From the NCBI GenBank assembly GCA_021845665.1, contig JAJZVO010000023.1, positions 1 to 64,000 on the forward strand: DNA of 64,000 bases, given 5' to 3'. A program made the position numbers and the translations under genes. Positions 21,929-48,224 of this stretch are shown here, in pieces (within the stretch, counting starts at the first letter, position 1; every line of letters starts with the position of its first letter). The notes beneath the pieces were generated by a model. The model was given only the letters and a program-made list of their open reading frames with translations. It did not search any database and was not told the origin of the DNA. Origin of the DNA: Bacteroidota bacterium (GTDB lineage: Bacteria; Bacteroidota; Ignavibacteria; Kryptoniales; JAKASW01).

Positions 21929-22011
21929 AGCGGCCACTACTACAAGCGCGCCCTTTTCTTGCTTGAAGTAATAGTAAGGTGTATCTTCAAGAAAACCGCG
22001 GATCCATTTCT

Positions 22012-28970: not shown

Positions 28971-29877
28971 GCAAACCTTATTAGTTAGCCTTTACGCAGA
29001 AACCTCGCTTCATGTTGGAAGTGGTTCAAGCTTCGGAGTAATTGATCTTCCGATCCAGCGAGAAAAATACACGGATTTCCCGATGTGTGCCGCCAGTAGC
29101 CTGAAGGGAGCTGTAAGAGAATGGTTTGAAATCAAAGGAAAAGAAAAAGAGGATGGCATCACGCAGGATGATATCAACATCGTTTTCGGACCGAAAGACG
29201 GAAGCGATTTCGCCTCTTGCGTTGCTTTTGGCGACGCGCGTGTCCTCTTGTTCCCTGTTCGATCTGCCAAAGGAGTCTTCGCGTGGATAACATGCCCCAT
29301 GGTATTTAGCCGCTTTCTGATCGAACTTCATCGAGCTGGGTTCAAAGACATCCCAAAGCCACCCGACCAGGACGGTGGGAAGATCGGGGTCGAGGTTAAG
29401 ACCCAGGTCGTCCTTGCAGGCAATAAGATCTTGCTTGAAGAAAGCATTTTCGATATTTCAGAAAGAATATCCAGAGAGATGGAGGGGTTAGGAAAGTGGG
29501 TTTCGGACAACCTCTTCCCGAAGGGAGATGAATATAAATTTTGGAGAGACAGTGTAGCTTCCAGGTTGGTAGTTTTGCCGGACGATGACTTCACATACTT
29601 TGTTAAGCACTCCACCGAAGTCAACGCCAGAGTAAAGCTGAGTGACAAAAAGACAACCGAGGATGGAGGCAATCTATTCTATGAAGAGAATTTGCCGCCG
29701 GAAAGTATTCTATATGCTTCCATCTTTGCTTCACATCCTCATAGCGATGGTGGAAAGAGTCTACCTGATGCCTCGAGTGCAGCGACATTCATAAAGAAAC
29801 TCGGCGGAAAGAGGATGCAGCTTGGCGGCGATGAGACTGTCGGTCGCGGAATAATTAACGTCAGAATGCTGGGATAG
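28963..29877 (+). CDS. cmr4: Cmr4, backbone RNase subunit
   Basis: 304 residues, the usual size. The start of the fold (SLYAETSLHVGSGSSFGVIDLPIQRE) contains Asp28 in the loop equivalent to the catalytic aspartate that cuts target RNA at 6-nt intervals. CAASSLKGAVREWF is the conserved G-rich helix entry. The subunit repeats along the crRNA in the Cmr filament. The catalytic residue is present, so target RNA cleavage is expected. Confidence 0.93.
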   Translation: MYEQTLLVSLYAETSLHVGSGSSFGVIDLPIQREKYTDFPMCAASSLKGAVREWFEIKGKEKEDGITQDDINIVFGPKDGSDFASCVAFGDARVLLFPVRSAKGVFAWITCPMVFSRFLIELHRAGFKDIPKPPDQDGGKIGVEVKTQVVLAGNKILLEESIFDISERISREMEGLGKWVSDNLFPKGDEYKFWRDSVASRLVVLPDDDFTYFVKHSTEVNARVKLSDKKTTEDGGNLFYEENLPPESILYASIFASHPHSDGGKSLPDASSAATFIKKLGGKRMQLGGDETVGRGIINVRMLG

Positions 29878-29886
29878 GAGGCTCAC

Positions 29887-30279
29887 ATGAGTAAGGATCT
29901 TGAAAAACTTCGCGCGAAGAAGGCATGGGATATTGTTTCAGAAATTAACCGGGGTGAGGCTGAGCTCAAAGAGAAATACTCACAGGAGGCCCAGGGATTT
30001 CCCGTCGACATCATCTCGAACGGACTGTTGCAGACTCTCGCCTTTTATAGATTGGGTGGGGATGACATAACAAAGAAGGCAAGACGTAAACTTGCCGGGC
30101 ACCTGGAAAATTGGCTTTTCTCGACTGGCGAAGATGGTCCCAATATTCCATTCAGCACAGGCACAGCGAACTCCGTCCACAAGTTGATAAGTTCATCTGG
30201 CGAAGTATATCGTCAAGCCACGCTGGAGTCTCTTGCTTTCCTGCAATGGCTCAAACGCTTCTCAAAGATGGAGGAGTAA
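29887..30279 (+). CDS. cmr5: Cmr5, small helical subunit
   Basis: 130 residues, entirely helical. RAKKAWDIVSEIN and PVDIISNGLLQTLAFYRLGG match the Cmr5 pattern. GGAGG lies about 6 bases before its ATG. The protein forms the minor filament that stacks on Cmr4 and stabilises target binding. It sits in the canonical position between cmr4 and cmr6. Confidence 0.9.
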   Translation: MSKDLEKLRAKKAWDIVSEINRGEAELKEKYSQEAQGFPVDIISNGLLQTLAFYRLGGDDITKKARRKLAGHLENWLFSTGEDGPNIPFSTGTANSVHKLISSSGEVYRQATLESLAFLQWLKRFSKMEE

Positions 30280-30283
30280 GGAA

Positions 30284-31348
30284 ATGGCTCAATACCTATT
30301 GCCTGATGAAACGAGAAATGCTCTAACTGGTGCAAATCTAAATTTGCAGGAGCTGAATCTTTCCCTTCTCTCTAATCTCTACCTCAAAGTCTGGACCGAG
30401 ACCGCCGGGAATTGGGAAATTACCACGGACAGCAAGGAAGGGGGTTTCAACGCCATGAAGAGCGTTTACCAAAACCCTTTTCTGGAGAGCGTGAGAAACA
30501 GAGCTGAAGCATCTCTGGGTGGTTTCAAACAAAAAAAGTCATTCTCCCTTAAGACCAGCTGGCGAATGGTAGTAGGACTCGGAGCTCCCAATCCTCTGGA
30601 GAGCTCCATGACACTTCATCCAGTCTACGGCTTCCCTTACATACCGGCAACCGCTGTGAAGGGCATCGCCAGAGCGTGGGCCGAGAAACATGCCCCAATA
30701 ACACCTGCTGATAGAAAACAAATACTTCTCGAGATATTCGGTTCTGAGGACAAGTATAGTAAGGACAGCGAGAACCAGCAGGTTGGCGGAATAATATTCT
30801 TCGATGCACTTCCCAACGGTTTTCCAAAATTTGAAATTGACGTTATGACACCTCATTACTCTCAATATTACACGAAGGGGGAAGTGCCAGGTGATTGGTA
30901 CAGTCCAGTGCCGATTAAATTCTTGACGGTGGACACGGGATCTGAGTTCACCTTCTCGCTGGCAGCATCCAGAAGGTTGGATTCATCACGTTCCGATGAG
31001 CTCTTGAACCATGCCGCAGCTTTTCTCGAAGAAGGTCTCGTTAATTTGGGAGTAGGCGCGAAGTCTAATGCAGGCTACGGCTACTTTCTAGATCAGTCAG
31101 GCAAGCCTTCATCTGCCGCAGGATCTTCGGTTGAACCGGACATTTTTCGCGGTCAACTGACGCGTGAAGCACAAGTACCTGCCCATGTAGTTAGAAGCGA
31201 TGCAGGCAAGATAACCGTCAGGCTGCACACCGAAACACCTAATGAGGCTACCTTTACATACGCAGCGGGTATCCAGGTCGGGAAATGGGTCTGGGTTAAG
31301 GTCACAAACCCAAAATCTCTTTCCGTGCAATTCATAAAGTTTATCTGA
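30284..31348 (+). CDS. cmr6: Cmr6, type III-B RAMP subunit
   Basis: 354 residues from the ATG at 30284, preceded by GAGGAGTAAGG; an in-frame start at 30233 lies inside cmr5. VVGLGAPNPLESSMTLHPVY, PYIPATAVKGIARAW and the C-terminal GAKSNAGYGYF are typical Cmr6 motifs. The protein ends about 100 residues after the last RAMP motif with a basic beta-rich tail (about 285-354), slightly longer than many homologues. It forms the crRNA 3'-end side of the filament with Cmr1. Confidence 0.92.
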   Translation: MAQYLLPDETRNALTGANLNLQELNLSLLSNLYLKVWTETAGNWEITTDSKEGGFNAMKSVYQNPFLESVRNRAEASLGGFKQKKSFSLKTSWRMVVGLGAPNPLESSMTLHPVYGFPYIPATAVKGIARAWAEKHAPITPADRKQILLEIFGSEDKYSKDSENQQVGGIIFFDALPNGFPKFEIDVMTPHYSQYYTKGEVPGDWYSPVPIKFLTVDTGSEFTFSLAASRRLDSSRSDELLNHAAAFLEEGLVNLGVGAKSNAGYGYFLDQSGKPSSAAGSSVEPDIFRGQLTREAQVPAHVVRSDAGKITVRLHTETPNEATFTYAAGIQVGKWVWVKVTNPKSLSVQFIKFI

Positions 31349-31381
31349 CTTCTCTCAAGAATTGCAGATTCCGAGTTTCGC

Positions 31382-32443
31382 TTGAATGCAAAGCAGCCAG
31401 CAGAATCGGCTATTCCTGATAATGGGAGCGCTGAGAATGACTTATTAGGCAAGGTACTCTCCTACGCTAAGCGTCTTCGCATCCTCGACCTTGGCTTTGA
31501 GATAGAATTCCTCTCCGATGTCGTCTTGCCAACTTACAAAGGCTCCACGCTCCACGGCGGGCTTGGCAGGGCTTTCCGAAAGCTCTACTGCACATGCGCA
31601 GAGCCGTTGCGGACACCGGATGAGAATGATAGCGAGGAGCAGTCCATCCATCACGAGGCAGAAGCCTGTCCTTATCATTTCATCTTCGAAACAAGAATCA
31701 ACGACAACGTCTTCAAGTTCCTGCGCAATGTCCCGAGCGTGCCGCACCCGTATTTGCTCGAACCGCCTCTCGACGAAAAGAAGGAATACATGGCAGGAGA
31801 AAGGCTGGCGTTCACCCTCAGGATTTTCGGTTCTGCCACAGGGTATGCGGTTAACATGATCGAAGCAGTTGCACTCTTCGGCAGACTCGGCGTGACCAGG
31901 GCAAGCGTTCACTTCAGGATTGTTCGGGTGACATCAATAGGCGCCGGAAGGAAACAGAATGTCATTTATGATGGCGCCTCGAACACCTATCTGGCGATTC
32001 CAAAACCCTATCGTTGGAAGCCCCGGGAAGAAAGCCCTCTATCTCACGAGTTGATGATCCGTTTTCTTTCACCGACTCGGCTTGTCAAGAGCGAACATTT
32101 ACAGGAGAACGTTGACTTCTTGATTATTTTGACCTCTCTCATCAGAAGGCTCGCGGCTCTCGCATACTACGCTGAAGGATTGAAGAACGCCGTGAAACTG
32201 ACCGAAGGAGTCAACATCTCCGCCAATAACGTTAGATTGATCAAACAGGACATCGATTGGAAAGCCTGGCGTCGGTATTCCAACCGGCAATCAACCGCCA
32301 TGCTGTTAGGGGGAGTGGTCGGAGAGTTGACTTTTGGAAACGTCACCGAGGATTTGCTGCTGTTGCTTGAATTCGGAAAGCTACTCCATCTTGGAAAGCA
32401 GACTACCTTTGGCCTGGGAAAATATGAAATCGCTCAGAAGTGA
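31382..32443 (+). CDS. cas6: Cas6, pre-crRNA processing endoribonuclease
   Basis: About 353 residues from a TTG at 31382; no ATG is available before the RAMP fold. LPTYKGSTLHGGLGRAFRKLYC opens the ferredoxin-like fold of the Cas6 group that has a cysteine-containing insertion (C-T-C-A...EACPYHFIFETR). The C-terminal glycine-rich loop is LHLGKQTTFGLGKYEI. It cuts the repeat RNA to leave an 8-nt 5' handle, here predicted to be ATGGAAAC. It overlaps cas2 by four bases, so the adaptation and processing genes follow cmr in one transcript. Confidence 0.9.
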   Translation: MNAKQPAESAIPDNGSAENDLLGKVLSYAKRLRILDLGFEIEFLSDVVLPTYKGSTLHGGLGRAFRKLYCTCAEPLRTPDENDSEEQSIHHEAEACPYHFIFETRINDNVFKFLRNVPSVPHPYLLEPPLDEKKEYMAGERLAFTLRIFGSATGYAVNMIEAVALFGRLGVTRASVHFRIVRVTSIGAGRKQNVIYDGASNTYLAIPKPYRWKPREESPLSHELMIRFLSPTRLVKSEHLQENVDFLIILTSLIRRLAALAYYAEGLKNAVKLTEGVNISANNVRLIKQDIDWKAWRRYSNRQSTAMLLGGVVGELTFGNVTEDLLLLLEFGKLLHLGKQTTFGLGKYEIAQK

Positions 32444-33126: not shown

Positions 33127-35409
33127 ATGAATCAGCAGTACAAATTTGAATGGGCGGAACAATCCTTGCGTTACGCGTTTCAAGGTATAGCTGCCAAAGG
33201 CTCCCGCGGAGGCATCGACAGAGTAACCGCAGAAGCCTATTCAAAGAACCTGCACTCAAATCTGTCAGCGCTGCTCAAACGCTTGCAGGAGGGGACTTAT
33301 GTTCCGTCACCCTATGAAAAGATATCCATACCAAAAGATGGCGGGTCGGTACGTATTCTCAGCCTCGCGACGGTCGAGGACAAAATAGTCCAGAGCATTG
33401 TAATGCATTATCTCGATGATACCTTCAAAGGCGTTTTTCTTGATTGCTCCTATGCTTACCGGGAAAACAAAGGCCATAAGAAAGCTATCGGCAGAGTCGA
33501 GCATTCACTCAGGGCTGCCCGCTCAGAGATGACTGCCGATGTAGACAATTTCTTTGACTCGATCGATCATTCAATCCTCGAATCCCAGCTTGCAGAAAGA
33601 ATCAAGGATGACCGGCTGCTCACACTAATCCGATTATGGATCACCACCGATTCTATCCATGATTCAAGACTCCAGAAAAGAAACATCGGCATTCCGCAGG
33701 GCGGACCCGTCTCGCCCATACTCTCGAACATCTACCTTTCTCCATTCGACAGGTTCATGGTCGGCCTCGGCAGGGCTTATATCCGCTATGCGGATAATTT
33801 CATTGTCTTCTCCGAAAACAAAAACGAGCTGGTCGAGATATTTAACCGGGCAGTCGATTACCTTCGCAGAAACCTCAGGCTCAGGCTCAACGAAGCAACT
33901 CCCGTGATATGTACTGAGGAGGAAGGCTTCGATTTTCTCGGCATCCATTTTAAAAACGGGAAGAGGACCATTGCCGACAGTAAGTTCACAAAGGCACTCA
34001 AGGAACCGGACGAGCTGAGGAGGAGACATCGTAAGGATAGCCTGGAGCGCTTGCGCGACCACTGGAACAAGATGGTACAATCATGGAGATTCTACTATGG
34101 GCCGTTTGACGTTGCAGAGCAGTTCTCATCACTAAGGCAGGAATTGCAAAAGAACCTCAGGCAGGAAATACTCTACCGGGCACAGCATGAAGAGATTCCC
34201 GAAGCAAAACTCGGAGAGATCATTTGTTCATTTGACTCCCTGACTGCGAACCCGAATGAGAACCGTGACTTTGCCGGAAGGATACTCGGTGAGATTAAGG
34301 AATTCCGAAAAGGGCGGGCCGACGGGAAGGAGGTACAGATTGCCCGAACGAGAGCCGCAAAAGTGAGGAAATTTATTCACCTCCACGTTGCCGAACACAA
34401 TCTCCTTGTGTCAACCCCGGGTTTCTTCATCGGAAGGTCGCAGGGAAAGATCCAGGTGAGGAAAGGACAGGAAGTTGTGACCGAACAACCCCTGCGAAGC
34501 ATTCACAATCTGATGCTTTCCGATCATGGCATCGGCATCTCCACCGATGTGATTGCCGAATGCGTTGAGAAGAAAACCCAGATTTTTATCGTGGACTCGA
34601 TCGGACATTACAGGGCGCTCATTATAGGAGACCCGTGGCCTCAGTTTAGCATCACTCTTTCCCAGGTCAATGCAGCCAACAGCTGGCTGGGCTCCCAGTG
34701 CGCGTTCAATTTCGTCGATGCGAAGATCAGGAATCAGGTCAACCTTCTTCGTTACTACGCCAAGTATCATTACGATGCAAACAGAAACTACGCTGAGGTC
34801 ATCTCCAAAGAAATCCCACGGATGGAGAAGGTGCTGACCGACATTTCCGCGCTGAATAGGAAAGGGTCTCTTCCAGGTGAGTACAATTCGGCAGTTTTCG
34901 GTCTTGAGGGACAGGCGGCCATTTCCTACTGGGCATGCATCGCCGCATTAATTGGAGACGAATGGGCCTTTACAAAGAGAGAACATCAGAACGCCGCAAA
35001 TATTGTTAACAAGATGCTCAATTACGGTTACGGCGTCCTGTCGTCGAAAATCCTCATCGCGATTATTTCGAGCGGATTGAACCCAATGATCAGCTTCCTG
35101 CATTCTGCCCAGGAAGGGAGACCATCTTTGGTCTTCGATGTCATGGAGCAATTCCGCCCCACTTGTGTGGACAGGGTCGTGGTCAGCATGTTGCTTCGAA
35201 AGGAAAGAGTCGAGAAAGACGGTGAGAAACTCCCGATCGAGCTGAGGAAAAGGATTGCCAGCGGGGTGCTGACGAAGATGGGCACTGAGTTCCAGTACCG
35301 CGGGAAAAGGCAGACAATCGAGGAAATACTGGCTAAACAGCTCGGCGATGTAGTCGAATTCCTCCAGGGGAAAACAAGAAACTTCAGGGCATTCCTCTCG
35401 AGATGGTGA
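33127..35409 (+). CDS. RT-cas1: reverse transcriptase-Cas1 fusion
   Basis: 760 residues. The N-terminal 330 or so are a group II intron-like RT: IDRVTAEAY, YEKISIPKDGGSVRILSL, the motif A aspartates in ADVDNFFDSIDH (about 137-148), GIPQGGPVSPILSNIY (188-203), and the active-site box YADN (221-224), where most RTs have YADD. The C-terminal 350 residues are a full Cas1: HNLLVSTPGFFIG, the catalytic Glu region VFGLEGQAAISYW, and SFLHSAQEGRPSLVFDVMEQFRP with the catalytic His and acidic residues. Fusions of this type let type III systems acquire spacers from RNA. There is no N-terminal Cas6 domain; cas6 is a separate gene. Confidence 0.95.
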   Translation: MNQQYKFEWAEQSLRYAFQGIAAKGSRGGIDRVTAEAYSKNLHSNLSALLKRLQEGTYVPSPYEKISIPKDGGSVRILSLATVEDKIVQSIVMHYLDDTFKGVFLDCSYAYRENKGHKKAIGRVEHSLRAARSEMTADVDNFFDSIDHSILESQLAERIKDDRLLTLIRLWITTDSIHDSRLQKRNIGIPQGGPVSPILSNIYLSPFDRFMVGLGRAYIRYADNFIVFSENKNELVEIFNRAVDYLRRNLRLRLNEATPVICTEEEGFDFLGIHFKNGKRTIADSKFTKALKEPDELRRRHRKDSLERLRDHWNKMVQSWRFYYGPFDVAEQFSSLRQELQKNLRQEILYRAQHEEIPEAKLGEIICSFDSLTANPNENRDFAGRILGEIKEFRKGRADGKEVQIARTRAAKVRKFIHLHVAEHNLLVSTPGFFIGRSQGKIQVRKGQEVVTEQPLRSIHNLMLSDHGIGISTDVIAECVEKKTQIFIVDSIGHYRALIIGDPWPQFSITLSQVNAANSWLGSQCAFNFVDAKIRNQVNLLRYYAKYHYDANRNYAEVISKEIPRMEKVLTDISALNRKGSLPGEYNSAVFGLEGQAAISYWACIAALIGDEWAFTKREHQNAANIVNKMLNYGYGVLSSKILIAIISSGLNPMISFLHSAQEGRPSLVFDVMEQFRPTCVDRVVVSMLLRKERVEKDGEKLPIELRKRIASGVLTKMGTEFQYRGKRQTIEEILAKQLGDVVEFLQGKTRNFRAFLSRW

Positions 35410-35820
35410 AGAGAGTTGCGAAGATCGGATATCCAAAAAGGTAGCGGAAATGCACATTCTTGAAAAAAGACTTTCGCAAATCCATCTGACTGAGTAGGTG
35501 GAAAGACGAGTTGCGAACAATGAGCATTTCATAGTCGGAAATTCGGCAGAAAATCGTGTTTGCGAGGGGCGATTTTCTCAAAAGCCCTTTCTCCTAAATG
35601 GACCAGAAGAGTTGCGACTTCAACTGAACCTTACATTTCATGGAGGGATAAATGGTTAAGACGACACTGAGAAGTAGTCGAGTTCAAATAAGCGCCAAGT
35701 GTGAATGGAGTTGCGAAAGAAATGAGTACGGATATGTAAACTGCAGTGACGGCGCGAGTTCCGCCGCGCGGGGCTACTTGCAACGAGGAGACGAGATTCA
35801 TAACTTATTGCGGAAGCGCT
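35410..35820 (+). promoter_or_regulatory. CRISPR leader with a regularly spaced GAGTTGCGA motif
   Basis: The region between RT-cas1 and the first repeat carries GAGTTGCGA at 35413, 35508, 35609 and 35708, spaced 95, 101 and 99 bases. A fifth partial copy (TTGCGGA) starts at 35808, just before repeat 1. It also has an 8-bp hairpin, GAAAATCG (35549-35556) paired to CGATTTTC. The degenerate last repeat is at the other end of the array, so this side is taken as the leader, holding the array promoter and the site of new spacer insertion. Confidence 0.6.
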
Positions 35821-35834
35821 CTTTGAAAACCTGA
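35652..35834 (+). CDS. doubtful small ORF inside the leader
   Basis: 60 codons with GGAGGG about 6 bases before the ATG, a good ribosome-binding site. The product is basic, contains three cysteines and runs into the first CRISPR repeat before stopping. It resembles nothing known. It might be a fortuitous frame in the leader; the ribosome-binding site is the only positive evidence. Confidence 0.2.
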   Translation: MVKTTLRSSRVQISAKCEWSCERNEYGYVNCSDGASSAARGYLQRGDEIHNLLRKRSLKT

Positions 35835-37717
35835 CTTATGGTTGAAGGATGGAAACCAAAACAGATTTTAATGTTTCGCTGTCAAATGTTTCTTTGAAAA
35901 CCTGACTTATGGTTGAAGGATGGAAACAATCTCCACGAGACATTACCACACTAACTATCTTGTCCTTTGAAAACCTGACTTATGGTTGAAGGATGGAAAC
36001 AAATATGGAACAGTTTTTGCGGCGGTATACGCAAACCACTTTGAAAACCTGACTTATGGTTGAAGGATGGAAACGACCGTCAAAGTCCCCAATTAATCCG
36101 CGGTCGTGCATGTCTTTGAAAACCTGACTTATGGTTGAAGGATGGAAACCCTGGAGCCAATAGAAATAGGTTCCGGAAGGAAGACGCGCTTTGAAAACCT
36201 GACTTATGGTTGAAGGATGGAAACAGTCCGGACAGTCGTCGGGACACTGCTCGCAAGGGCACTTTGAAAACCTGACTTATGGTTGAAGGATGGAAACTGT
36301 CCTCCTCAATGTAGGAGGTGTGAAGTATCTGTATCTCTTTGAAAACCTGACTTATGGTTGAAGGATGGAAACTGTCCACGGCGCTCCAAGTAAGGCCGCC
36401 ATCGGTACTTTGAAAACCTGACTTATGGTTGAAGGATGGAAACAGAGATGTGATGTCCGCATTCCAATCGGTGGTATCTGGCTTTGAAAACCTGACTTAT
36501 GGTTGAAGGATGGAAACTCTGACTCAACGCGAAGGTTGTTGGAACAGGCGGGTTATCCTTTGAAAACCTGACTTATGGTTGAAGGATGGAAACGCGCAGA
36601 AGTGATGGTTCACGTCCGAACAAACGGCGACCTTTGAAAACCTGACTTATGGTTGAAGGATGGAAACGCCGGAGTTACTACACGTTTCGAGATACACCAC
36701 TGAATCGCTTTGAAAACCTGACTTATGGTTGAAGGATGGAAACGGGACATAATGTCTCGCACCTCGTGCTCGGTCACATCACCCTTTGAAAACCTGACTT
36801 ATGGTTGAAGGATGGAAACGAACTTTCCGGGCTATCAGTGTAACCACTAAAAAGGACCCTTTGAAAACCTGACTTATGGTTGAAGGATGGAAACAGATTG
36901 GTGAAAATCAGTTGCGGGGAACTTGCCGCTTTGAAAACCTGACTTATGGTTGAAGGATGGAAACAGTAGTACTGAGACCAATAAATATTTCCTACAGCTT
37001 CTGGCTTTGAAAACCTGACTTATGGTTGAAGGATGGAAACTCTGCGAGTTTCCGTCTTGCGGTAGTAGATGTAACCTACTTTGAAAACCTGACTTATGGT
37101 TGAAGGATGGAAACAGATAACCACCATAATCGCCGTTTGAATAACTAATATTCCCTTTGAAAACCTGACTTATGGTTGAAGGATGGAAACAAGCTGAACG
37201 TTGTGGCGACGGGCGGGTTATCAACGACCTTTGAAAACCTGACTTATGGTTGAAGGATGGAAACTATACAGCTCTTCCGCTGTCCCCTCGGGGAATTCCT
37301 CGGGCTTTGAAAACCTGACTTATGGTTGAAGGATGGAAACGCTTTTTTCGAGCTTTCTTCCAACCCCATGTCGTACTTTGAAAACCTGACTTATGGTTGA
37401 AGGATGGAAACTCTGTTCTTCAGAAGGTTTTCCATCGAAACACTTCCGTTTTCTTTGAAAACCTGACTTATGGTTGAAGGATGGAAACAATTTCTGGTCG
37501 ATAGGAGACCGACTGAACGGCTGCCTCGAGAGGCTTTGAAAACCTGACTTATGGTTGAAGGATGGAAACGTGGTCGCAGCGGTAGGTGGAATTTGGATCC
37601 ACCGCTTTGAAAACCTGACTTATGGTTGAAGGATGGAAACGAGAATTTGGCTGAACCTTCCCCGGTCGGTACCAATAAGACCTTTGAAAACCTGACTTAT
37701 GGTTGAAGGATGGAAAT
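35821..37717 (+). CRISPR. type III CRISPR array, 26 repeats and 25 spacers
   Basis: The 36-base repeat begins CTTTGAAAACCTGACTTATG and ends GTTGAAGGATGGAAAC. Repeat starts are at 35821, 35892, 35965, 36039, 36114, 36189, 36262, 36337, 36408, 36482, 36558, 36632, 36708, 36784, 36859, 36929, 37005, 37079, 37155, 37229, 37305, 37376, 37453, 37534, 37605 and 37682. Spacers are 34-45 bases, mostly 35-41. The repeats looked uniform except the last, which ends GGAAAT, marking the distal end. The expected crRNA 5' handle is ATGGAAAC. Spacers at 36518-36557 and 37191-37228 target related coding sequences. Confidence 0.98.
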
Positions 37718-37896
37718 TCCAAAGTTGCCCACTTAGACCGCGAAGCGGGGTAAGCGGCAGCAACTCTGAGAATCCCGCCGAAGGCTTACTCGAGGCGTCG
37801 ATCGATACCCGTTGGTTTGTAGTGCGCTTGTAAGTTTCGCTGAATCTTGCTATCGTATTTTCAACAATCGGTGCCTTAGATACGAGGTTGAGCAGA

Positions 37897-38367
37897 ATGG
37901 ACGAGTTCTTCGAACACTTGGAGTATGATCTGACAAGCCGGCTCTTGCATCAGCTTAGATTTGAAAAGAAGTTACAGAAGAGGTTGCGTTCGCGGAGAAA
38001 CGCGACCGAAGAGACGGATGATGCGTATTCTGACTATAGTTTAGGGACGATCTGGGTCGTTGACGACCACAAGGTGCATTTTCGCGGTCGGCGCGACGAA
38101 AAATCATATCATGACGGAAGGCGGCCAGGGGTAGTTATCGTCTCTCCCTGCAAAGAGACGCGTTACGAGGTCTGCTGGATCCCGGGATCATCCAAAATCG
38201 CGGGGCGACCTATAGCCCGTATAGTGGTCAGCGAGAACTCGGCCTATCTCTTGTGCGAAAAAGAGTGGTATCGTCCTCAGACTCTCGAATCGAAGAGAGG
38301 AGACTTGCCCCCCGACAAGCTTCTCGAACTGCGGCACAAATGGGATGAACTGGAATGCGATGAGTAA
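37897..38367 (+). CDS. PemK/MazF-like protein
   Basis: About 156 residues from the ATG at 37897, with GAGG about 10 bases upstream; a TTG at 37888 is in frame. After an N-terminal charged helical segment (about 1-45) comes a PemK/MazF-type SH3-like barrel: SLGTIWVVDD, RRPGVVIVSP, IARIVVSENSAYLL and a C-terminal helix LPPDKLLELRHKWDEL. MazF-family proteins are usually mRNA interferases, but a homologue serves as the sigma-binding partner in the CalpL-CalpT-CalpS type III signalling module. It overlaps the sigma-like gene by eight bases and is the first gene after the CRISPR array. Confidence 0.65.
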   Translation: MDEFFEHLEYDLTSRLLHQLRFEKKLQKRLRSRRNATEETDDAYSDYSLGTIWVVDDHKVHFRGRRDEKSYHDGRRPGVVIVSPCKETRYEVCWIPGSSKIAGRPIARIVVSENSAYLLCEKEWYRPQTLESKRGDLPPDKLLELRHKWDELECDE

Positions 38368-39364
38368 CCGCTTTCAGGATAACCTGGCAGAACTTGTAAC
38401 TCTTATCCGCAAGCTCCGAAATGAATCTACTCTGAAGCCGAAAGAGCACGCGAGTGTTAACAAGCGGTTTGATCGAGTTCTTGCCGAGTTCGTTCACTCT
38501 ATGGCGTCCTCATACTCAACTTACCCCTATACATTAGATGAGTTCAAGGATCTCCTGGGAGAAGTTCAAAAGAACATCGCAACAAATCTTCTTAGAAAAG
38601 ATGCCTTTGAAAATGGAGATACCATCGACGGAGCCCCCGACGATCGGATTAAAGGATGGATAAAAACAACCACGAGTAACGCGCTCAGGAACGACCCCTC
38701 CCCTCAAAAGAGAGACTATCGTTACCTGTTGACGACAATCAATAACACTCTGAAGAGGATGGAAAATTCAGGAGAATTTGACTCTTCTAAAATTGTGGAA
38801 TATCGTTTTGAAGAGTTGAGACGAAAGATTCTTAATGAGATTGACGTGTCAGAGTCCAAAGGGAAAAGCCTTGCCAGGAAGGTCGCAGAAATTGCGAGGA
38901 GGATACTAAAATTGGCCGGCGGTATGATCGAGCGACGCGATTTGAATGATTTGGTTAGCGAGATCACTGGCATTTACAAACCCGTCAAGGAGAGTCCTGG
39001 AGACGAGTCGAACAAGAATGTTGTCGATGATATTCCATCGGTTGACGATTTACCAAAAGAGATAATCATTGACATTGAGTCTGCAACCGAACGCCTTCTG
39101 ACACGCCTCGAAGGGCGGAAGGATCCACGATTGTTGCCAATACTTTGCTATAAATTTGTTCATGAGTTGACTTATAGGGAGATTCAATCGAGGACTAAGA
39201 TACCGAAGCAGACTCAGGATTTTCTTCTTAAACGAAGGATACTACCAGATCTCTACAACGCGATCAAGAATTGCAGCAGGGATCCCGACTATAGAATCGT
39301 TGCAAAGTTTCGTGAAAAGGTTTTAGAAGGTTTGAGCAAAAGGGGGATACAATGCGAAGCCTGA
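38360..39364 (+). CDS. sigma-factor-like protein
   Basis: About 334 residues from the ATG at 38360, overlapping the previous stop. Residues about 45-115 resemble sigma region 2 (LDEFKDLLGEVQKNIATNL, RIKGWIKTTTSNALRND). Near the C-terminus, LLPILCYKFVHELTYREIQSRTKIPKQTQDFLLKRRILPDL reads as a region 4-type helix-turn-helix. The two parts are separated by a long charged, helical linker, so it is larger than an ECF sigma factor (about 180-200 aa). It would redirect RNA polymerase once freed from an inhibitor. The next gene starts 13 bases before its stop, the usual arrangement for sigma/anti-sigma pairs. The sigma call is from motif resemblance. Confidence 0.6.
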   Translation: MSNRFQDNLAELVTLIRKLRNESTLKPKEHASVNKRFDRVLAEFVHSMASSYSTYPYTLDEFKDLLGEVQKNIATNLLRKDAFENGDTIDGAPDDRIKGWIKTTTSNALRNDPSPQKRDYRYLLTTINNTLKRMENSGEFDSSKIVEYRFEELRRKILNEIDVSESKGKSLARKVAEIARRILKLAGGMIERRDLNDLVSEITGIYKPVKESPGDESNKNVVDDIPSVDDLPKEIIIDIESATERLLTRLEGRKDPRLLPILCYKFVHELTYREIQSRTKIPKQTQDFLLKRRILPDLYNAIKNCSRDPDYRIVAKFREKVLEGLSKRGIQCEA

Positions 39365-40545
39365 GCCAGAGAAAGGGCAAATCGCAACGTCTCCCGGAGA
39401 TTCCGGACAGATATGAGATTGCCGAGTATGTTCAGGGGAGACTTTCAAAAAGCCGGCGAAAGCAGATAAAAGAGTTGCTTGAGTCTGATGACCCTGTTGC
39501 AATAGGTGTGAAGATTGACTTTGAAGAAATAAAGAGCCGTATTAAAGCCATGCCCTTCAGACCGCTTTCTAGTAATGCAACCGGTGTGCTTCAAGCTCGC
39601 ATGCAGGCGGTCCTCAGACATTCAGGGATGCCAGCCCCGGGGGAAATATGGTCACTTCAGTTGCAGAAATCTAATTCCGGGATCTCCAGAGATCGATCCG
39701 TTTTGATCTTTCATATCCATGGCGGATTCGCGCGAGTTGCACCAGTGACTAAGGAAACCGATTTTGCCGGTCCGCGTGATATTATTGTGCGCGACCGATC
39801 CTATGCCTTCGTGCCTTTCATGCTCGAGTTGTTCGCGTCATTCTGGACTGATTTGAGTCTGCTAACTGATCAAGGCGAATTCGAAGCCCGTGTTTCAGAG
39901 AAGACTCTTTCTGCAGCACGTAGAGCGGACAGGGGCATCTATAGCAATTTGCCTCGCGGCGTCAGACGCGGCTCCGTCCAGGAAATATCAGACATTGAAG
40001 AGTTCCATGAGGAATGGCGAGAAGGAGAGCGGATGCTCTTTGAAAAATTCAAAACAACACCGTACGTGCTGGAAGAATTCGAAGCGGCTGATGTCGAGAA
40101 GGTAGCTGAACCACAGTCGATACCCATCCCTGTCTCTTTCATTTCGTACCAACAGCCCACGCAATACGTGTACCGTCTCGCCGCGGCTGACCAGACATTC
40201 ACGGTCTCTGAATTCCAATTCTGGGAAAAGGAAAGGGGCCTTTCTGGCCAAATGCGTCGCCTCATTCTCCAGGCCCCATCCTTTGAAGTGCGTGTCTCGA
40301 TAGTCGATGGCCACCTCTTCTTGGTTGCTGAACGAGCCGACAAGTCACCGAAGATTGTATCAGACGTTTCCTTGTCCAGTGGTGAAACAAACATTCTCAC
40401 TACGGAGAACTCCGTTCAGTTCTCAACATCCCAGAGAGTTCATCTTCATTTTGATGTTGATCCTGCACTCCCTCTCACAGGGCGGTGGATTTTGCGTTTC
40501 AGCCTTGATGATAAGGGGTATCAGAACGAGGTCGAATTCAAATGA
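39352..40545 (+). CDS. PemK/MazF-core protein, candidate anti-sigma factor
   Basis: 397 residues. The N-terminal 55 residues (RYEIAEYVQGRLSKSRRKQIKELLES) look like the helical sigma-binding segment of cytoplasmic anti-sigma factors, without the zinc ligands. Residues about 95-145 have a PemK/MazF-like barrel: GEIWSLQLQKSNSGISRDRSVLIF, FARVAPVTKETDFAGPRDIIV. The remainder is an unrecognised beta-rich region with an Ig-like end (TGRWILRFSLDDKGYQNEVEF). Position between a sigma-like gene and a Lon-like protease gene mirrors CalpS-CalpT-CalpL, where a MazF homologue holds the sigma factor until cleaved. The anti-sigma role is an inference. Confidence 0.55.
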   Translation: MRSLSQRKGKSQRLPEIPDRYEIAEYVQGRLSKSRRKQIKELLESDDPVAIGVKIDFEEIKSRIKAMPFRPLSSNATGVLQARMQAVLRHSGMPAPGEIWSLQLQKSNSGISRDRSVLIFHIHGGFARVAPVTKETDFAGPRDIIVRDRSYAFVPFMLELFASFWTDLSLLTDQGEFEARVSEKTLSAARRADRGIYSNLPRGVRRGSVQEISDIEEFHEEWREGERMLFEKFKTTPYVLEEFEAADVEKVAEPQSIPIPVSFISYQQPTQYVYRLAAADQTFTVSEFQFWEKERGLSGQMRRLILQAPSFEVRVSIVDGHLFLVAERADKSPKIVSDVSLSSGETNILTTENSVQFSTSQRVHLHFDVDPALPLTGRWILRFSLDDKGYQNEVEFK

Positions 40546-41714
40546 ACATCGTGCGACGCGAGCAGGAAGCACAAGGTCACCTTGAGCTGGGCAACTATCG
40601 ACAAGCACAGGAAATCTACAAAGAACTTGCAGAGAACGAAAGCGATCTTAGTTCGAAGAACCACTTCAACGATTCTGCAAATGCTGCCGAGGCGTTTGCC
40701 ACAGAATTCACTGGCTTGCGTGTGGGAGAAGCCCTATGTCCTATCGTCGACAAGAGGACAGGTCATGGTTGTCTCTGTGTAGTCCAAACGGGTAAAGTGC
40801 GTGACTTACATGGCCGCCTCGTTTCGCAGTCCATCGGGACCTCATTTGAACTGTTTCCTCAGCTGATGTTGAATTGGACGCCGGTAACGGAACTAATTGC
40901 AACTTTCCTTTCTCCTCTGGTAAGTTCGTTCGGGAGATTATCGGTACTCAACTGGGGTTGGGATTGTTGGAAGCCTTCAGTTCGCAAATTGCCACACCGC
41001 TCTAATGAGAGAGCCAAGGATCCACAAGGTGAGTCATCTCAACTGGCCATGGCATTGGCGATTATATCTGAAATTACCTCCAGGCCCATCGGTGCGGGAT
41101 TTGCATTCACAGGAAGACTTGTAACGGAGGGAGGAAAGGTTTGCGTAGAACGGGTTGAAGACATTGCTGAGAAAGTCAGAGTATCCCTGAAGGAACTGCC
41201 TCAGGTAGGAACGATATTTGTTCCTCATTCAAATGAGCGTGAGGCACTTCAGGAAGCTCGGCAGATCGGAAAAGAAGCGCAGACAAGAGCCGTGTCAACT
41301 CTCGAAGAGGTTATCGAAGTTGTTTTCCCGGGCTTCAATGCGGATTTCTTGCGGATGGTTGAGGACAGGCACATCGGATCTGATTGGCTGTATCTGGACC
41401 TAAGAGAGAATTCTGAACATGTTCTGCAGTTCGAGTCTCTCCGAAACGGTTCCGCTTTGGTCGATCATAAAACAATTGGGTCTATTCAATTGCCCTCGCT
41501 TCCTGATGGGACTCGGGGGCTAATCTTAAATGGCCCGTTGCCTATTTTTCTAACATCCACGCTGACTCCAAGATATATTAGACACTATCAGATTTTTTTC
41601 GCGGTGAGTCTTGGCAAGGACCGGAAGTACGCGGTCGTCACCGCCGGACATGCGCTCGCGCCTCGACAAGTTGGAGATGTTGTTTCATTCGAGCCGTCTC
41701 CGGAACAAGACTGA
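40542..41714 (+). CDS. TPR-Lon-like protease with Csx3-like C-terminal domain
   Basis: 390 residues; the ATG overlaps the preceding stop. Residues 1-35 look like one TPR repeat. About 160-245 align with the Lon proteolytic domain: GESSQLAMALAIISEIT matches GPSAG..., FAFTGRL matches the MTGE strand, and EDIAEKV matches KEKL. The catalytic dyad would be Ser165 and Lys211, both present, with a three-residue insertion compared with E. coli Lon. Residues about 315-390 (LPSLPDGTRGLILNGPLPIF, FFAVSLGKDRKYAVVTAGHA, VGDVVSFEP) resemble Csx3, a cyclic tetra-adenylate-binding protein. There is no AAA module and no SAVED domain. It is probably a ligand-controlled protease. Confidence 0.65.
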   Translation: MNIVRREQEAQGHLELGNYRQAQEIYKELAENESDLSSKNHFNDSANAAEAFATEFTGLRVGEALCPIVDKRTGHGCLCVVQTGKVRDLHGRLVSQSIGTSFELFPQLMLNWTPVTELIATFLSPLVSSFGRLSVLNWGWDCWKPSVRKLPHRSNERAKDPQGESSQLAMALAIISEITSRPIGAGFAFTGRLVTEGGKVCVERVEDIAEKVRVSLKELPQVGTIFVPHSNEREALQEARQIGKEAQTRAVSTLEEVIEVVFPGFNADFLRMVEDRHIGSDWLYLDLRENSEHVLQFESLRNGSALVDHKTIGSIQLPSLPDGTRGLILNGPLPIFLTSTLTPRYIRHYQIFFAVSLGKDRKYAVVTAGHALAPRQVGDVVSFEPSPEQD

Positions 41715-41721
41715 CGCGACC

Positions 41722-43041
41722 ATGAAAGAAAACGTCCTCTTTTCTACCCTGGGTGTCACCGCCCCTGTAATCTCAGAAACAATCAACTTGCTTGAGGCCG
41801 AGGGAAAATCGATTAACAAACTTGTAGTCGTTCACACCTCCTTCAAAGACGTTCTTCACAAACAAACTCCATCAGGGAAAGATATAGGGCTCGTGGCACT
41901 GAAGGAGTATATCGGAAGTAAACGCGGCAACATCGCGGTTGAATCAATAGACTTGGGGATTGAAGACATTCTCACGGAAAATGATAACACAAAGGTCCTC
42001 CACGTTTTGATGAATGCCATCGAGGAGGAAAGAAATAAGCAAAACACTGTCTATGTAAGCATCGCTGGCGGGCGAAAAACGATGTCCGCCGCCGCCTTGT
42101 TTGCCGCTTATGCAGTAGGCTGTGACGGAATATATCATGTCCTGGTTAATGGCAGAGAAGAGGAACTTACAGACGCATATGGTTTCGATGTTCCACTGGA
42201 TAAGCTTACTCTGATTAGAATTCCTCCAGTCAATCTTTCACTGATGTTGAAGACGGTGATTGAGGAGATTGACACAAACAACCTCTTTCGCGGAGATATC
42301 TCTGCATATCTGCAGGATAAGGAGAGAGTTGAAGAAGTATTCAGTTATCTAAACGACGGATTACGGGCGTCACTGGATCTGCGTAAACTTCACGAGGAAC
42401 ATAACCGGCGTTATTCGCTTTACGAGAGAATGAACCAAACCGTTCTCGCTATCCTGCAAGGCCGGATCCGGAAATCCGCGGTTATGAAACCGCAATATGA
42501 GAGCAGGGTGAAAACCTTCGAAAGCTTCATACGGAAAATTGCCGAGAAACGGGGCAGAGGAGAAACGTTCCAAGATCCGTTCGAAAGGATACATGACCTA
42601 TCGGCGGTCAGAATTGTCACGTACTTTCAAGAGGATCTGGATACCCTCGAAAAGATGATCGATGGCATGATTACCGAACGGGTGGATTTTGAACCTTATC
42701 CCGATCCCGACAAGGCAAAAAAGATTAAGAAGCCGGAGGTGGTTGGATATACCGGAATTCATTATCTGGTCGGACTTCGCCCCGATCGGACAGCTCTCCT
42801 GGAATATGAAAGGCTGTCCGGATTATGGTGTGAAATTCAGCTCAAGACAATTTTCGATCATGCCTGGTCCCAGGTCGATCATCGTCTCCGGTTCAAGTCA
42901 GAAGAATTCCATGCGATGTCGAAAGAACAAAAGGACGAAGTCCTGGCGGTGTTCGCAGATGCGGCCAGGTTGTTGAACGAAAGCAAAGCCGTTTTCAGTA
43001 CTCTGCGCGAAACTTACGAGCATTTCAGAAAAGAGACCTAG
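41722..43041 (+). CDS. CARF-RelA/SpoT alarmone synthetase fusion
   Basis: About 439 residues from the ATG at 41722; an upstream frame at 41611 lies inside the protease gene. The N-terminal half is a CARF fold of the NE0113-like group: LFSTLGVTAPVISETINLL and VSIAGGRKTMSAAALFAAY (about 112-130). The C-terminal half is a (p)ppGpp synthetase domain with all key motifs: SRVKTFESF (R262, K264), IHDLSAVRI (D292), GYTGIHYLV (Y343, H347) and EIQLKTIFDHAWSQVDH (E371, Q373). A helical linker (about 175-250) joins them. No HD hydrolase domain is present. Binding of cyclic oligoadenylate to CARF would switch on alarmone synthesis, or tRNA pyrophosphorylation as in toxSAS enzymes, and so cause growth arrest. 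Confidence 0.85.
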   Translation: MKENVLFSTLGVTAPVISETINLLEAEGKSINKLVVVHTSFKDVLHKQTPSGKDIGLVALKEYIGSKRGNIAVESIDLGIEDILTENDNTKVLHVLMNAIEEERNKQNTVYVSIAGGRKTMSAAALFAAYAVGCDGIYHVLVNGREEELTDAYGFDVPLDKLTLIRIPPVNLSLMLKTVIEEIDTNNLFRGDISAYLQDKERVEEVFSYLNDGLRASLDLRKLHEEHNRRYSLYERMNQTVLAILQGRIRKSAVMKPQYESRVKTFESFIRKIAEKRGRGETFQDPFERIHDLSAVRIVTYFQEDLDTLEKMIDGMITERVDFEPYPDPDKAKKIKKPEVVGYTGIHYLVGLRPDRTALLEYERLSGLWCEIQLKTIFDHAWSQVDHRLRFKSEEFHAMSKEQKDEVLAVFADAARLLNESKAVFSTLRETYEHFRKET

Positions 43042-43128: not shown

Positions 43129-43521
43129 ATGCTTATCAACCTCTCAAATCACCCGCTAACAGCATGGGATAACTCGCAGCGACATGCCGCACAAGAAGAG
43201 TACGGTCTGTTAGCCGACCTTCCGTTCCCACCTGTTCCAGCTAACGCCGGGTTGCAGGAAGTCCAACAGAAAGTGGAAGAATACATTTCGCTCTGTCAGG
43301 CTATGTTTGACGATTACTTCCAGACCGGAGGAATTGCTGACAAGAATCGCAACGCAATACATGTTATGGGGGAATTCACTTTCGTCTATTTGTTTGTTGC
43401 CCGTTGCCGGAAGTTGTCGATTCCGTGTGTCGCGTCCACCACGGATCGCATTGTTGTCGATAATACGGACGGTTCCAAGACAACCCGCTTCAACTTCTTG
43501 CAATTCAGGCCTTACTTCTAA
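43129..43521 (+). CDS. small CRISPR-associated protein, candidate ring nuclease
   Basis: 130 residues. MLINLSNHPLTAWDNSQ, YGLLADLPFPPVPANA and the C-terminal VVDNTDGSKTTRFNFLQF give a Rossmann-like pattern seen in short proteins encoded next to type III effector genes, some considered candidates for cyclic-oligoadenylate ring nucleases (Csx15-like). The resemblance is from memory and no catalytic residues are established. It lies between two CARF effector genes and ends one base before the next ATG, so it could limit the lifetime of the signal. Confidence 0.45.
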   Translation: MLINLSNHPLTAWDNSQRHAAQEEYGLLADLPFPPVPANAGLQEVQQKVEEYISLCQAMFDDYFQTGGIADKNRNAIHVMGEFTFVYLFVARCRKLSIPCVASTTDRIVVDNTDGSKTTRFNFLQFRPYF

Positions 43522-43522
43522 G

Positions 43523-45163
43523 ATGTCCCAACCAAGAAGAAATATTCTCGTTGCCGTTGTAGGTATGACCCCGCAAGTGGTCACGGAAACACTCTATGCA
43601 CTGGAGGTGGAACAGCGTATAAAAGTGTCAGAGACTTATGTTATCACTACCGAAGAGGGCAAGAAGAATATCCTGGGTGACAAAGGCCTACATTCTCTTG
43701 CTGATGAAATCGCAAGACTATCACAAATATATGAATGTCAGCTTCCAACTTTTTCCGTTGAGAAGAACTGCATCACCGTCGAAGATGAAAGCTTTCAGAT
43801 TGCTGACATCGATTCGGCCGAGAAGAGTCTCGCCTTCTTCAACGCGATGACAGAGTTCGTTCGCAATTTGTCCGCTGATTCCAACTCAGCGATACATTGC
43901 TCCATAGCAGGCGGTCGTAAAACAATGGGCCTCGCTGCCGGCTATGCTATGTCGCTTTTCGGCCGCCCTCAAGACACACTGTCTCATGTCTTGGCTAGCA
44001 AGGAACTTGAAGACAGTAAGAAATTCTTCCCAGAGCCAGGCCATGATGCCGAAAAGGTTGTCCTTGTCGAGATACCTTTCATCCGGCTGAGGGACTTCAT
44101 TGACATAGAGTTGTCAAAAGGATCATACTCTGATTTTGTAAGTCTTGCTCAAGCTAGGGTTGATATTCGAACCGGTGATTTCGGTGCACGATTCGGTATC
44201 ATAGGCCACTCCCCGAAAATGATTGATGTTTTTTCGAGAATAGAGGATTACTCGGAATCGGATTACCCCATCTTGATTATCGGAGAGACTGGGACAGGAA
44301 AAGAACTCGTCGCACGCGCAATTCACCAAAACAGCAATCGAGCTGAATCAGAATTTGTCGCGGTGAATTGTGGGTCAGTTTCTCACGACCTTCTTGAGAG
44401 TGAACTATTCGGTCACGTCAAAGGTGCATTTACGGGAGCAGGTCAAGATAGAGCTGGCTTTTTCGAAACAGCTGACAATGGCACGATCTTCCTTGATGAG
44501 GTAACCGAGACTGATTCTAATTTTCAGAAAAATCTTCTTCGCGTTCTTCAGGAAGGAGAATACCGCCGAGTTGGCGAGACTCTCCTCAGGAAAACAAATG
44601 CACGGGTCATCGCAGCAACTAATCGAGTTGATCTAAGAAGAGAGATCACCGGTGGGGATTTCCGCCAAGACCTTTACTACCGGCTCGATGTCTTGCGCAT
44701 TTCGATCCCACCATTGAGAGAGAGAAAAGAGGATATACCCGAACTGGTCGATTACTTCCTCATGAAGCACTCTAAAAAGGTAGGGAAAAGTTTTGACGGT
44801 CTATCCCCAGTTTTTCAGGACGCACTCCAATCTTATGATTATCCTGGAAATGTTCGCGAATTAGAGAACAACATCATCCAGACGGTTGTTGGCACTGGCG
44901 GCAAGACCATTACCGACAAATATCTTGGCCAAGAGATTAAAGATGCGTGGTCGAGGATCTTAGCTACCATAGTTATTGAAGAACCTCCCGAGACCATTCT
45001 GCCATTTGAAGATATGAAGAAACATTGGCTGATCCACGTACTTCGCATAACTCGCGGCAATCGCTCGAAGGCTGCTCAGTTAATGCAACTCGACTATGAC
45101 ACTGTTCTAAACTGGATTAAGAAGTACGGAATAGAAGAGCACCATTACCGAAATACTCGGTAA
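43523..45163 (+). CDS. CARF-sigma54 AAA+ enhancer-binding transcription activator
   Basis: About 546 residues from the ATG at 43523. The N-terminus is an NE0113-type CARF domain (ILVAVVGMTPQVVTETLYAL; HCSIAGGRKTMGLAAGYAM). From about 230 a complete sigma54-interaction AAA+ domain follows: Walker A GETGTGKE (about 254), the sigma54-contact loop GAFTGA (about 301), Walker B GTIFLDEV, FRQDLYYRLDVLRISIPPLRERKEDI, and YPGNVRELEN. The C-terminal Fis-type helix-turn-helix is NRSKAAQLMQLDYDTVLNWIKKYGI. The layout matches RtcR, a CARF-containing sigma54 activator, but with a CRISPR-type CARF. Ligand binding should allow it to remodel sigma54-RNA polymerase at target promoters. Confidence 0.9.
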   Translation: MSQPRRNILVAVVGMTPQVVTETLYALEVEQRIKVSETYVITTEEGKKNILGDKGLHSLADEIARLSQIYECQLPTFSVEKNCITVEDESFQIADIDSAEKSLAFFNAMTEFVRNLSADSNSAIHCSIAGGRKTMGLAAGYAMSLFGRPQDTLSHVLASKELEDSKKFFPEPGHDAEKVVLVEIPFIRLRDFIDIELSKGSYSDFVSLAQARVDIRTGDFGARFGIIGHSPKMIDVFSRIEDYSESDYPILIIGETGTGKELVARAIHQNSNRAESEFVAVNCGSVSHDLLESELFGHVKGAFTGAGQDRAGFFETADNGTIFLDEVTETDSNFQKNLLRVLQEGEYRRVGETLLRKTNARVIAATNRVDLRREITGGDFRQDLYYRLDVLRISIPPLRERKEDIPELVDYFLMKHSKKVGKSFDGLSPVFQDALQSYDYPGNVRELENNIIQTVVGTGGKTITDKYLGQEIKDAWSRILATIVIEEPPETILPFEDMKKHWLIHVLRITRGNRSKAAQLMQLDYDTVLNWIKKYGIEEHHYRNTR

Positions 45164-46415: not shown

Positions 46416-48224
46416 ATGAAGTCAATCTTAGATTTTATGTTCGGTTTGATGTATGCGTTCAGAGGCCGTCCACTCCAAATTGCTGAGGAAACTCGGCGCA
46501 ACCAGCTTCTGGCGAAAGCTCCCCTCTCGGTATCGCCCGCGTCCTTTCAAATACAACCTGACGGAGAGGTCATTCATGTTACCGAGGACACAGCCGATGA
46601 TCAACCTGACGATGAAGATGAGCTCAGTCTCAGGCGGCTTATCGGTCAAAAATCGATTCAAAGAATCATCCGCCACGTGCAGGAGCTGGGCGAGCGGCTA
46701 AGTCAACTCATTCTCGAGAGGACAGAGAAAGCAGCCCAGCTTGACGAACTCCGAGCCGCATCTCGCTCATCCATGCTTGACTCCGGCGGAGAACTCGAGC
46801 ACAAGCGCCGCGACCGCAAACGGCTCATTCCATTAATGATATTAACCGCGCTCGCGGCAATCCTTTTTGATGCCTTCACTCTCGCTGACTGCGTGACGGG
46901 CCTCGATATCTCGAATTTGTTCCGGGCCGGTCCACTTTCAATATTCACAACTTCTGTCCTTTCGCTCGGGATGTTCTTCGTGCAATACTGGGCGGCGCAC
47001 CTTTTCAGCGAGGAGAAAACAACCCACAAAATATCAGGCATATTTGTCCTGGTATCCTTGGCTTTCATCCTCATGATGTTCAGATTGCATGAAAATTACG
47101 GGGCTGGTCTGCAAGCATCATCGCAGATTACGGATTTTCTTGGCGCCCTCTTTTTCCTTCTTACGGTGAGCTTGGCTTTACTCTTTCACTCCCTTTACCA
47201 AGAATCCCGTCAAATTCAAAAATGGCTTGATATGTACGATGGAAATCTCAAGGCAAGGAGACAGGCTGAACTGGAATTACAAGCCGAAACGAGATCCATC
47301 GACGAGCGAATACAAGAATGCGAAAGAGAGATTGAAAGCGATATAAGAGAATTCGAGAACGCCCACCGCGCAGAGGAATCCAGAAAGGAAACTGAGGCAC
47401 AACGGTCAGATGCCTTTGCAAAAAGGCTTCTTGCCCGTCTTGCCACGTTCCGCTTCGGCTACCTGATGGGAGAACGAACAAAGAAGGCCCCGGCACTCAA
47501 ACCAGTACTCGTGGCTTCGATAATAATTCCGCTCCTTTTCCTCCTCTTCGGGTGCGGCTATTACGCTAATCGTGGTGGAGCTGATTGCGAGGTTATCACA
47601 GACCAGAGCACATCGGTCGGAAGCTACCACATAAACTCCGCTGAACTCGCTGAGATCGGCACCTCATGGGTTCACGACGCTGAGAGAATGGGTGGCGGCA
47701 GATTTGAAATATTGCTGGTCGGCCATTCCTTCGACGATGTGCCGGTACTTTTTTCCCAGGATTACCCAACACGGTTTCCTGCACCCATAAGTGAAAGCAA
47801 GGCCAGGTGGGGAAGGCAATTCATTGCTCGCCTCAGCGGAGTCGCCGACAGCCTGCCTCAAAATGGAGGCTCGGCGATAGCCGAGGCAATTTACCGGGCC
47901 TCACTTCGAATTCCCGACAAAGGGGAAACCACAATCTTTGTCTACTCCGACCTTCGGGAAGTGAACAGGAGATTCGATCTGGAGAGGAACGTTCCCACTT
48001 ATACGGAGTTTGCAGACTGGCTCAAAGGGGATGGTATATCTCCAGTATTTCCGAAAGACACTCGATTGCAGGTAATCGGAGTTCACCCTTACAGCGGGCC
48101 GAACACTTCCAGACTGACTGCCCAAAACTACGATAAAACAATTCGACTCTGGGAGCAGGTTTTCAAAAGCTGGAAAGTTAAAGCATCAATCTCAGAGACT
48201 TTGAACTTGAATTCGATCCAATAA
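46416..48224 (+). CDS. five-helix membrane protein with coiled coils and a vWA-like domain
   Basis: 602 residues. A cytoplasmic N-terminus with a coiled coil (about 75-115) is followed by four hydrophobic segments (about 133-155, 172-196, 205-225, 237-260), a second coiled coil (about 265-345), and a fifth segment (VLVASIIIPLLFLLFG, about 366-381). The C-terminal 215 residues begin CEVITDQSTSVG, where DQSTS matches the DxSxS metal site (MIDAS) of von Willebrand A domains, and continue with IFVYSDLREV in the place of the second conserved Asp. The function is unknown. The next gene starts 22 bases downstream and is probably its partner. Confidence 0.6.
   Translation: MKSILDFMFGLMYAFRGRPLQIAEETRRNQLLAKAPLSVSPASFQIQPDGEVIHVTEDTADDQPDDEDELSLRRLIGQKSIQRIIRHVQELGERLSQLILERTEKAAQLDELRAASRSSMLDSGGELEHKRRDRKRLIPLMILTALAAILFDAFTLADCVTGLDISNLFRAGPLSIFTTSVLSLGMFFVQYWAAHLFSEEKTTHKISGIFVLVSLAFILMMFRLHENYGAGLQASSQITDFLGALFFLLTVSLALLFHSLYQESRQIQKWLDMYDGNLKARRQAELELQAETRSIDERIQECEREIESDIREFENAHRAEESRKETEAQRSDAFAKRLLARLATFRFGYLMGERTKKAPALKPVLVASIIIPLLFLLFGCGYYANRGGADCEVITDQSTSVGSYHINSAELAEIGTSWVHDAERMGGGRFEILLVGHSFDDVPVLFSQDYPTRFPAPISESKARWGRQFIARLSGVADSLPQNGGSAIAEAIYRASLRIPDKGETTIFVYSDLREVNRRFDLERNVPTYTEFADWLKGDGISPVFPKDTRLQVIGVHPYSGPNTSRLTAQNYDKTIRLWEQVFKSWKVKASISETLNLNSIQ

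Follow-up and report, generated by a model that had tools for sequence, protein, structure and literature searches.

A CARF domain joined to a RelA/SpoT-type alarmone synthetase in type III CRISPR loci of Bacteroidota

The known effectors that respond to cyclic oligoadenylates in type III CRISPR immunity cleave RNA, DNA or proteins, permeabilise membranes, or use up NAD+ or ATP. As laid out in the main text of a classification from November 2025, they comprise HEPN, PIN and RelE RNases, PD-(D/E)xK and HD DNases, and caspase and Lon proteases, together with other enzymes, regulators and membrane proteins (PMC12669027). RelA and SpoT go unmentioned in that main text; its supplements may list them. 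In Cad1, Can1/2, Card1, Cami1, Cam1 and Cat1, an effector is fused to a CARF domain and encoded in a type III locus. Here we describe a protein that is likewise built, from a CARF domain and a RelA/SpoT-type synthetase (SYNTH) domain, and that is encoded in a 64,000-nucleotide stretch of a Bacteroidota genome (contig JAJZVO010000023.1, positions 1 to 64,000; hereafter the window). It is probably a type III ancillary effector in which cyclic tetra-adenylate (cA4) triggers a synthetase that would make (p)ppGpp or (p)ppApp and halt growth. The signalling logic is already known, and the alarmone synthetase is new to it as effector chemistry. No report of a CARF-RelA/SpoT effector was found in the open literature searched, a scope outside which lie the rare architectures of a 2020 CARF survey. 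Among the best 25 of 52 PADLOC models, none spans both domains.

The fusion protein and its relatives

The fusion gene runs on the plus strand from an ATG at 41722 to a TAG at 43041 and encodes 439 residues (P0001); its coordinates and strand were given exactly in the initial annotation of this DNA. The frame is open upstream to a TTG at 41611, and both homologs described below begin at the position of the ATG. A frame or strand error is excluded, the minus strand of 41722-43041 being full of stops. Residues 1-170 (41722-42231, +) form the CARF sensor domain, residues 171-256 (42232-42489, +) a helical connector, and residues 257-439 (42490-43038, +) the SYNTH domain, as assigned from Pfam and fold matches. 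In an AlphaFold2 model built from a 71-row alignment (mean pLDDT 90.6, pTM 0.71), the connector holds a helix at 172-185 and a long helix at 200-250, and pLDDT drops to 69-80 at residues 171-220.

The claim that one protein holds both a CARF domain and a complete RelA/SpoT synthetase is borne out by Pfam matches above the curated cut-offs for Cas_NE0113 (CARF; residues 15-149, E=1.9e-22) and RelA_SpoT (residues 261-394, E=3.8e-17). The residues named in the initial annotation, GGRK 116-119 and the catalytic set R262, K264, D292, Y343, H347, E371 and Q373, are all correctly placed, and the catalytic set is intact. The ligand loop, proposed earlier to be of the GGRK type, reads IAGGRKTMS (residues 114-122), with GGRKTM invariant in 37 of 37 related CARF sequences. 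On the synthetase side, R262, K264, K272, D292, R297, G342, Y343, H347, W382, H387 and K392 are invariant in 37 of 37 related sequences that have a letter at the position.

Both halves of the model adopt the expected folds (VIA-align). Residues 4-169 form a Rossmann fold that superposes on the cA4 ring nuclease Sso2081 with Z 18.8 and 2.0 Å over 148 residues, and the CARF domain of Cad1 is a near-equal match (Z 18.6). A model lacking the synthetase fold had been named at the outset as grounds for rejecting the idea; the fold is present, with residues 224-435 matching RelQ (Z 18.7, 3.0 Å over 187 residues), RelP (Z 18.0) and CapRel (Z 13.9). The SYNTH profile gives E-values of 8.6e-31 for RelQ, 1e-25 to 1e-30 for RelP-type enzymes and 3e-7 for CapRel. 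As annotated, the 439 residues include no HD hydrolase domain, and Pfam gives no match to HD_4, TGS or ACT. This is the layout of the small alarmone synthetases (SAS), except for the CARF domain, which SAS lack. There is no CapRel-like C-terminal pseudo-zinc-finger antitoxin domain either; the model stops at the C-terminal helix of SYNTH (401-438).

The same matches allow for a protein in which SYNTH is no growth-stopping effector, and whose main role would be that of a CARF ring nuclease or of a mild regulator, one that prepares a stress response without inducing dormancy. Its CARF domain is closest to that of the Crn1 enzyme Sso2081 (IAGGRKTMS against ITGGRKSMS), and enzymes of the RelQ/RelP type act in stress and are not toxic (PMC11782079). 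We consider such a function rather improbable: every synthetase catalytic position is conserved over deep divergence, and a dedicated hydrolase in one of the loci (below) argues that synthesis matters.

Phylum-wide and class-wide genome searches yielded two full-length relatives of the fusion in independent genomes of the same phylum, with 34% and 44% identity to the window protein. Both sit in type III-D cas loci. In Bacteroidetes bacterium UWPOB_BACT1 (G011; L004/L010/L025), the gene lies between a RAMP gene and a reverse transcriptase-Cas1 (RT-Cas1) gene, with Cas10d, and a CRISPR array is found in L011. In G547, a genome of the window's class (L018/L021), it is flanked by a large RAMP gene and cas6, and Cas10d is again present. 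GGDD is present in both Cas10d proteins. The type III context holds for the window gene as well: the fusion accompanies a complete III-B locus with a GGDD Cas10 and an array.

In the tree of each domain the three fusions form one clade, with support of 99/97 and 100/98 and long branches, which indicates that the fusion is old and has been kept and is no accident of assembly. The simplest reading is a single old fusion that now occurs with different type III subtypes. The window gene is the sole example in 20 genomes of its order, as might be expected of a chance fusion, an assembly error or a decaying gene, but this explanation is hardly credible: three independent assemblies share an identical architecture without stops, all in type III loci, and both domains give one clade. 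A chance open reading frame or a single mis-assembly is ruled out by the existence of two independent full-length homologs, together with the trees.

Beyond these, no CARF-SYNTH fusion was found among the 395 genomes of the class of G095 or on viral contigs. Plasmids and phages gave SYNTH-domain matches only, with no place covering 80% of the fusion query, and among the matches listed from a scan of genome contigs only L025 is a fusion, the same one as L004. The nearest free-standing synthetases are 350-380-residue proteins on prophage-like contigs (L109-L165, IMG/VR), and the PADLOC candidate family PDC-S33 is also among the closest. At L019, a free-standing relative (1432-2520) is followed by a gene (2592-3437) that by eye joins TIR and Mrr-like endonuclease parts; the two may be a separate defence pair.

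Activator, product and removal of the signal

The best-supported activator is cA4, judging by the ring nucleases in the loci. Csx20 and Csx3 break down cA4 and accompany no effectors other than those dependent on cA4 (PMC12409355), which leads to the prediction that the fusion responds to cA4. A Csx20-like ring nuclease gene (43129-43521, +) adjoins the window fusion and has a 40% identical homolog in the G547 locus, where a Csx3-AAA gene is also found. The match of the window gene to NF040559 (E=5.3e-8) is below its curated cut-off, which makes the cA4 step an inference.

The strongest pointer to alarmone making as the real function is a small alarmone hydrolase paired with the fusion in G547. 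Its gene (145 residues; L021 14567-15004) shares a four-base ATGA overlap with the ATG of the fusion at 15001, and the hydrolase is apparently translated jointly with the CARF-controlled synthetase. Along its whole length it aligns with 7smg, a solved "(p)ppApp hydrolase", with 41% identity across 135 residues (E=1.6e-32). It retains the HP, HD and ED motifs, and its next-best matches are hydrolase domains of RelA/SpoT homologs (RSH). The window's genome has an HD domain in its long Rel, outside the CRISPR locus. A 224-residue Mesh1/Lmo0812-type hydrolase is also encoded there, away from the CRISPR locus (G000:C25:46680-46856; L108, P0003).

Judged from sequence, the product may well be (p)ppGpp, an assignment that we make tentatively. 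The nearest solved relatives, RelQ and RelP, make (p)ppGpp, so that profile and fold favour this product over the tRNA modification of CapRel. Syn2 (AVR in P0001, AVR/GVR among the fusions) and the syn3 histidine resemble those of (p)ppGpp enzymes, unlike the signatures of the (p)ppApp synthetase Apk2, syn3 GxN and syn2 RYT (PMC12226406), neither of which is present in P0001.

The syn3 motif and the G547 hydrolase also bear on a second product. The same effector could make (p)ppApp, a toxic-SAS-like (toxSAS) drain on ATP/ADP that would kill or arrest the cell and be restrained by a (p)ppApp hydrolase, though we think this doubtful. The hydrolase that overlaps the G547 fusion is closest to 7smg, and in toxSAS loci such hydrolases adjoin (p)ppApp synthetases (PMC11782079, PMC12226406). 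Moreover, the syn3 serine is absent in two of the three fusions, the motif being GxH in the window fusion, AxH in G547 and SxH only in G011. However, H347 is kept throughout, where Apk2 has GxN; syn2 has the A/G-V-R of (p)ppGpp enzymes instead of RYT; the nearest solved relatives produce (p)ppGpp; and the specificity of the G547 hydrolase is read solely from identity.

A third acceptor, the 3'-CCA end of tRNA, would make the effector shut off translation, as CapRel and FaRel2 do. CapRel has the same fold, tRNA-modifying toxSAS are already known in phage defence (PMC9712102, PMC11559606), and the window locus holds a Cami1-like CARF-RelE gene (21979-23487, +; PADLOC CARF_RelE E=3.7e-52), a second candidate cA4 effector that would also target translation. 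We nevertheless regard tRNA as an unlikely acceptor and as the weakest candidate among the three products, because SYNTH is nearest RelQ/RelP, with CapRel far below them in both profile and fold, and because the G547 hydrolase points to (p)ppApp. Furthermore, no antitoxin-like zinc-finger domain follows SYNTH.

Several observations weigh against an alarmone-making effector. The fusion is rare, with three examples, all from one phylum, in overlapping samples that add up to about 1,375 genome searches, and the closest free-standing SYNTH relatives are uncharacterised prophage proteins. No hydrolase neighbours the synthetase at the window locus, at L010 or among the free-standing relatives analysed, so that two of the three fusions are without an adjoining partner of this kind. 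With a pTM of 0.71, the mutual placement of CARF and SYNTH is less certain than either domain by itself. Finally, the syn3 SxH motif, which recognises guanosine, is altered in the window and G547 fusions, so that the acceptor may be something other than GTP/GDP.

On balance, we find it reasonably likely that type III CRISPR turns a cA4 alarm directly into another second messenger, either (p)ppGpp or (p)ppApp, and that in one lineage a hydrolase devoted to this product serves as the off-switch. The ligand, allosteric activation, product and cell arrest that we infer would be connected as follows. Foreign RNA met by the Cmr complex would prompt Cas10 to make a cyclic oligoadenylate, most likely cA4. 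The CARF domain, presumably dimeric, would bind this molecule, and the helical connector would relay the signal that switches SYNTH on. Active SYNTH would use ATP to pyrophosphorylate a purine nucleotide at its 3' position, and the resulting (p)ppGpp or (p)ppApp would halt growth via the stringent response or via a drain on GTP/ATP. Ring nucleases would remove the signal, namely Csx20 and perhaps the fusion's own CARF domain. The product would be removed by alarmone hydrolases, a dedicated one in G547 and the chromosomal Rel and Mesh1/Lmo0812-type enzymes in the window's genome.

Other genes of the CRISPR loci

The type III-B cas genes of the window (Cmr1, Cas10/Cmr2, Cmr3, Cmr4, Cmr5, Cmr6 and Cas6) span 24800-32443 (+), and GGDD from residue 411 of Cas10/Cmr2 predicts a cyclase-competent protein. 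An RT-Cas1 fusion gene (33127-35409, +) and a CRISPR array of 26 repeats (35799-37717, +) lie downstream. Of the three CARF-RelA loci, two have an RT-Cas1 fusion, the second at L010 17321-19690.

Tightly packed, overlapping genes (37888-41714) start just past the array and stop 7 bp before the fusion gene, which is the last gene of this operon. The first encodes a 159-residue protein (37888-38367, +) with a homolog in G547 (E=4e-7). The second, a 339-residue protein (38345-39364, +), appears sigma-like by eye only; it has no family match and a low-confidence AlphaFold2 model, and the sigma-factor reading is unconfirmed. The third (397 residues; 39352-40545, +) overlaps both neighbours and has a weak homolog that adjoins a Lon-like gene in G547. 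The fourth, 7 bp upstream of the fusion gene (40542-41714, +), joins a Lon-type peptidase domain (Lon_C, E=5.2e-6, over the Pfam cut-off) to a Csx3-like domain (E=1.4e-3, below it); S165 and K211 of the peptidase are kept in a homolog. The four-gene operon is conserved at L166 128-3750. It recalls the Calp protease/anti-sigma/sigma cascade, with the Csx3-like part replacing the SAVED domain of CalpL.

Directly after the Csx20-like gene, 43523-45163 encodes an RtcR/PspF2-like protein made up of a CARF domain (Cas_NE0113), a sigma-54 AAA+ activator and an HTH domain, possibly a transcription activator controlled by cyclic oligoadenylate. Membrane/vWA-like proteins are encoded near the CRISPR loci, by one long gene in the window (46416-48224) and by gene pairs in G547 (L021 4584-6511; L022 9931-11716). 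In G011, tandem duplications of a 175-residue gene and its upstream region lie just before the type III locus (L010 3342-5966).

Comparison with known systems

If true, the proposed mechanism would tie adaptive immunity to the stringent response through a direct molecular link. An alarmone-making effector would unite two bacterial nucleotide signalling systems that are among the best known, and would offer a route to reversible dormancy. The fusion suggests that some CRISPR systems can, on infection, drive the cell directly into dormancy or stress. As the link resides in one protein, it is directly testable, and the hydrolase/fusion pair of G547 opens the on and off switches to joint study.

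Among CARF proteins, Crn1 (Sso2081) is closest by sequence and fold, with a common IxGGRK(S/T)MS motif. In contrast to Crn1, which stands alone, the CARF domain of the fusion has a catalytic domain attached. The CARF fold is also nearly identical to that of Cad1, and the fusion, like Cad1, is predicted to target the nucleotide pool. Its effector, however, is a RelA/SpoT pyrophosphokinase, unrelated to the deaminase, nuclease, TIR, protease and membrane effectors of other CARF proteins.

The SYNTH domains of RelQ and RelP are the closest, with profile E-values of 1e-25 to 1e-30, fold Z of 17-19 and every catalytic residue in common, but these enzymes lack a CARF domain or CRISPR link, and two of the three fusions have another residue in place of the syn3 serine. 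Growth-stopping SYNTH enzymes are known from toxSAS systems (FaRel with its SAH antitoxin, Apk2 with Aph1, and CapRel). The gene arrangement in G547 is like that of faRel and apk2 loci, in that a (p)ppApp-hydrolase-type gene adjoins the synthetase; the window locus, unlike toxSAS, has no antitoxin. While toxSAS are controlled by an antitoxin or a phage-protein sensor, the fusion is predicted to use a second-messenger sensor domain.

The signalling logic is that of the CARF-HEPN proteins Csm6 and Csx1, in which Cas10 makes a cyclic oligoadenylate that acts through CARF on an effector. In the fusion, an alarmone synthetase takes the place of the HEPN RNase, and one second messenger is predicted to give rise to another.
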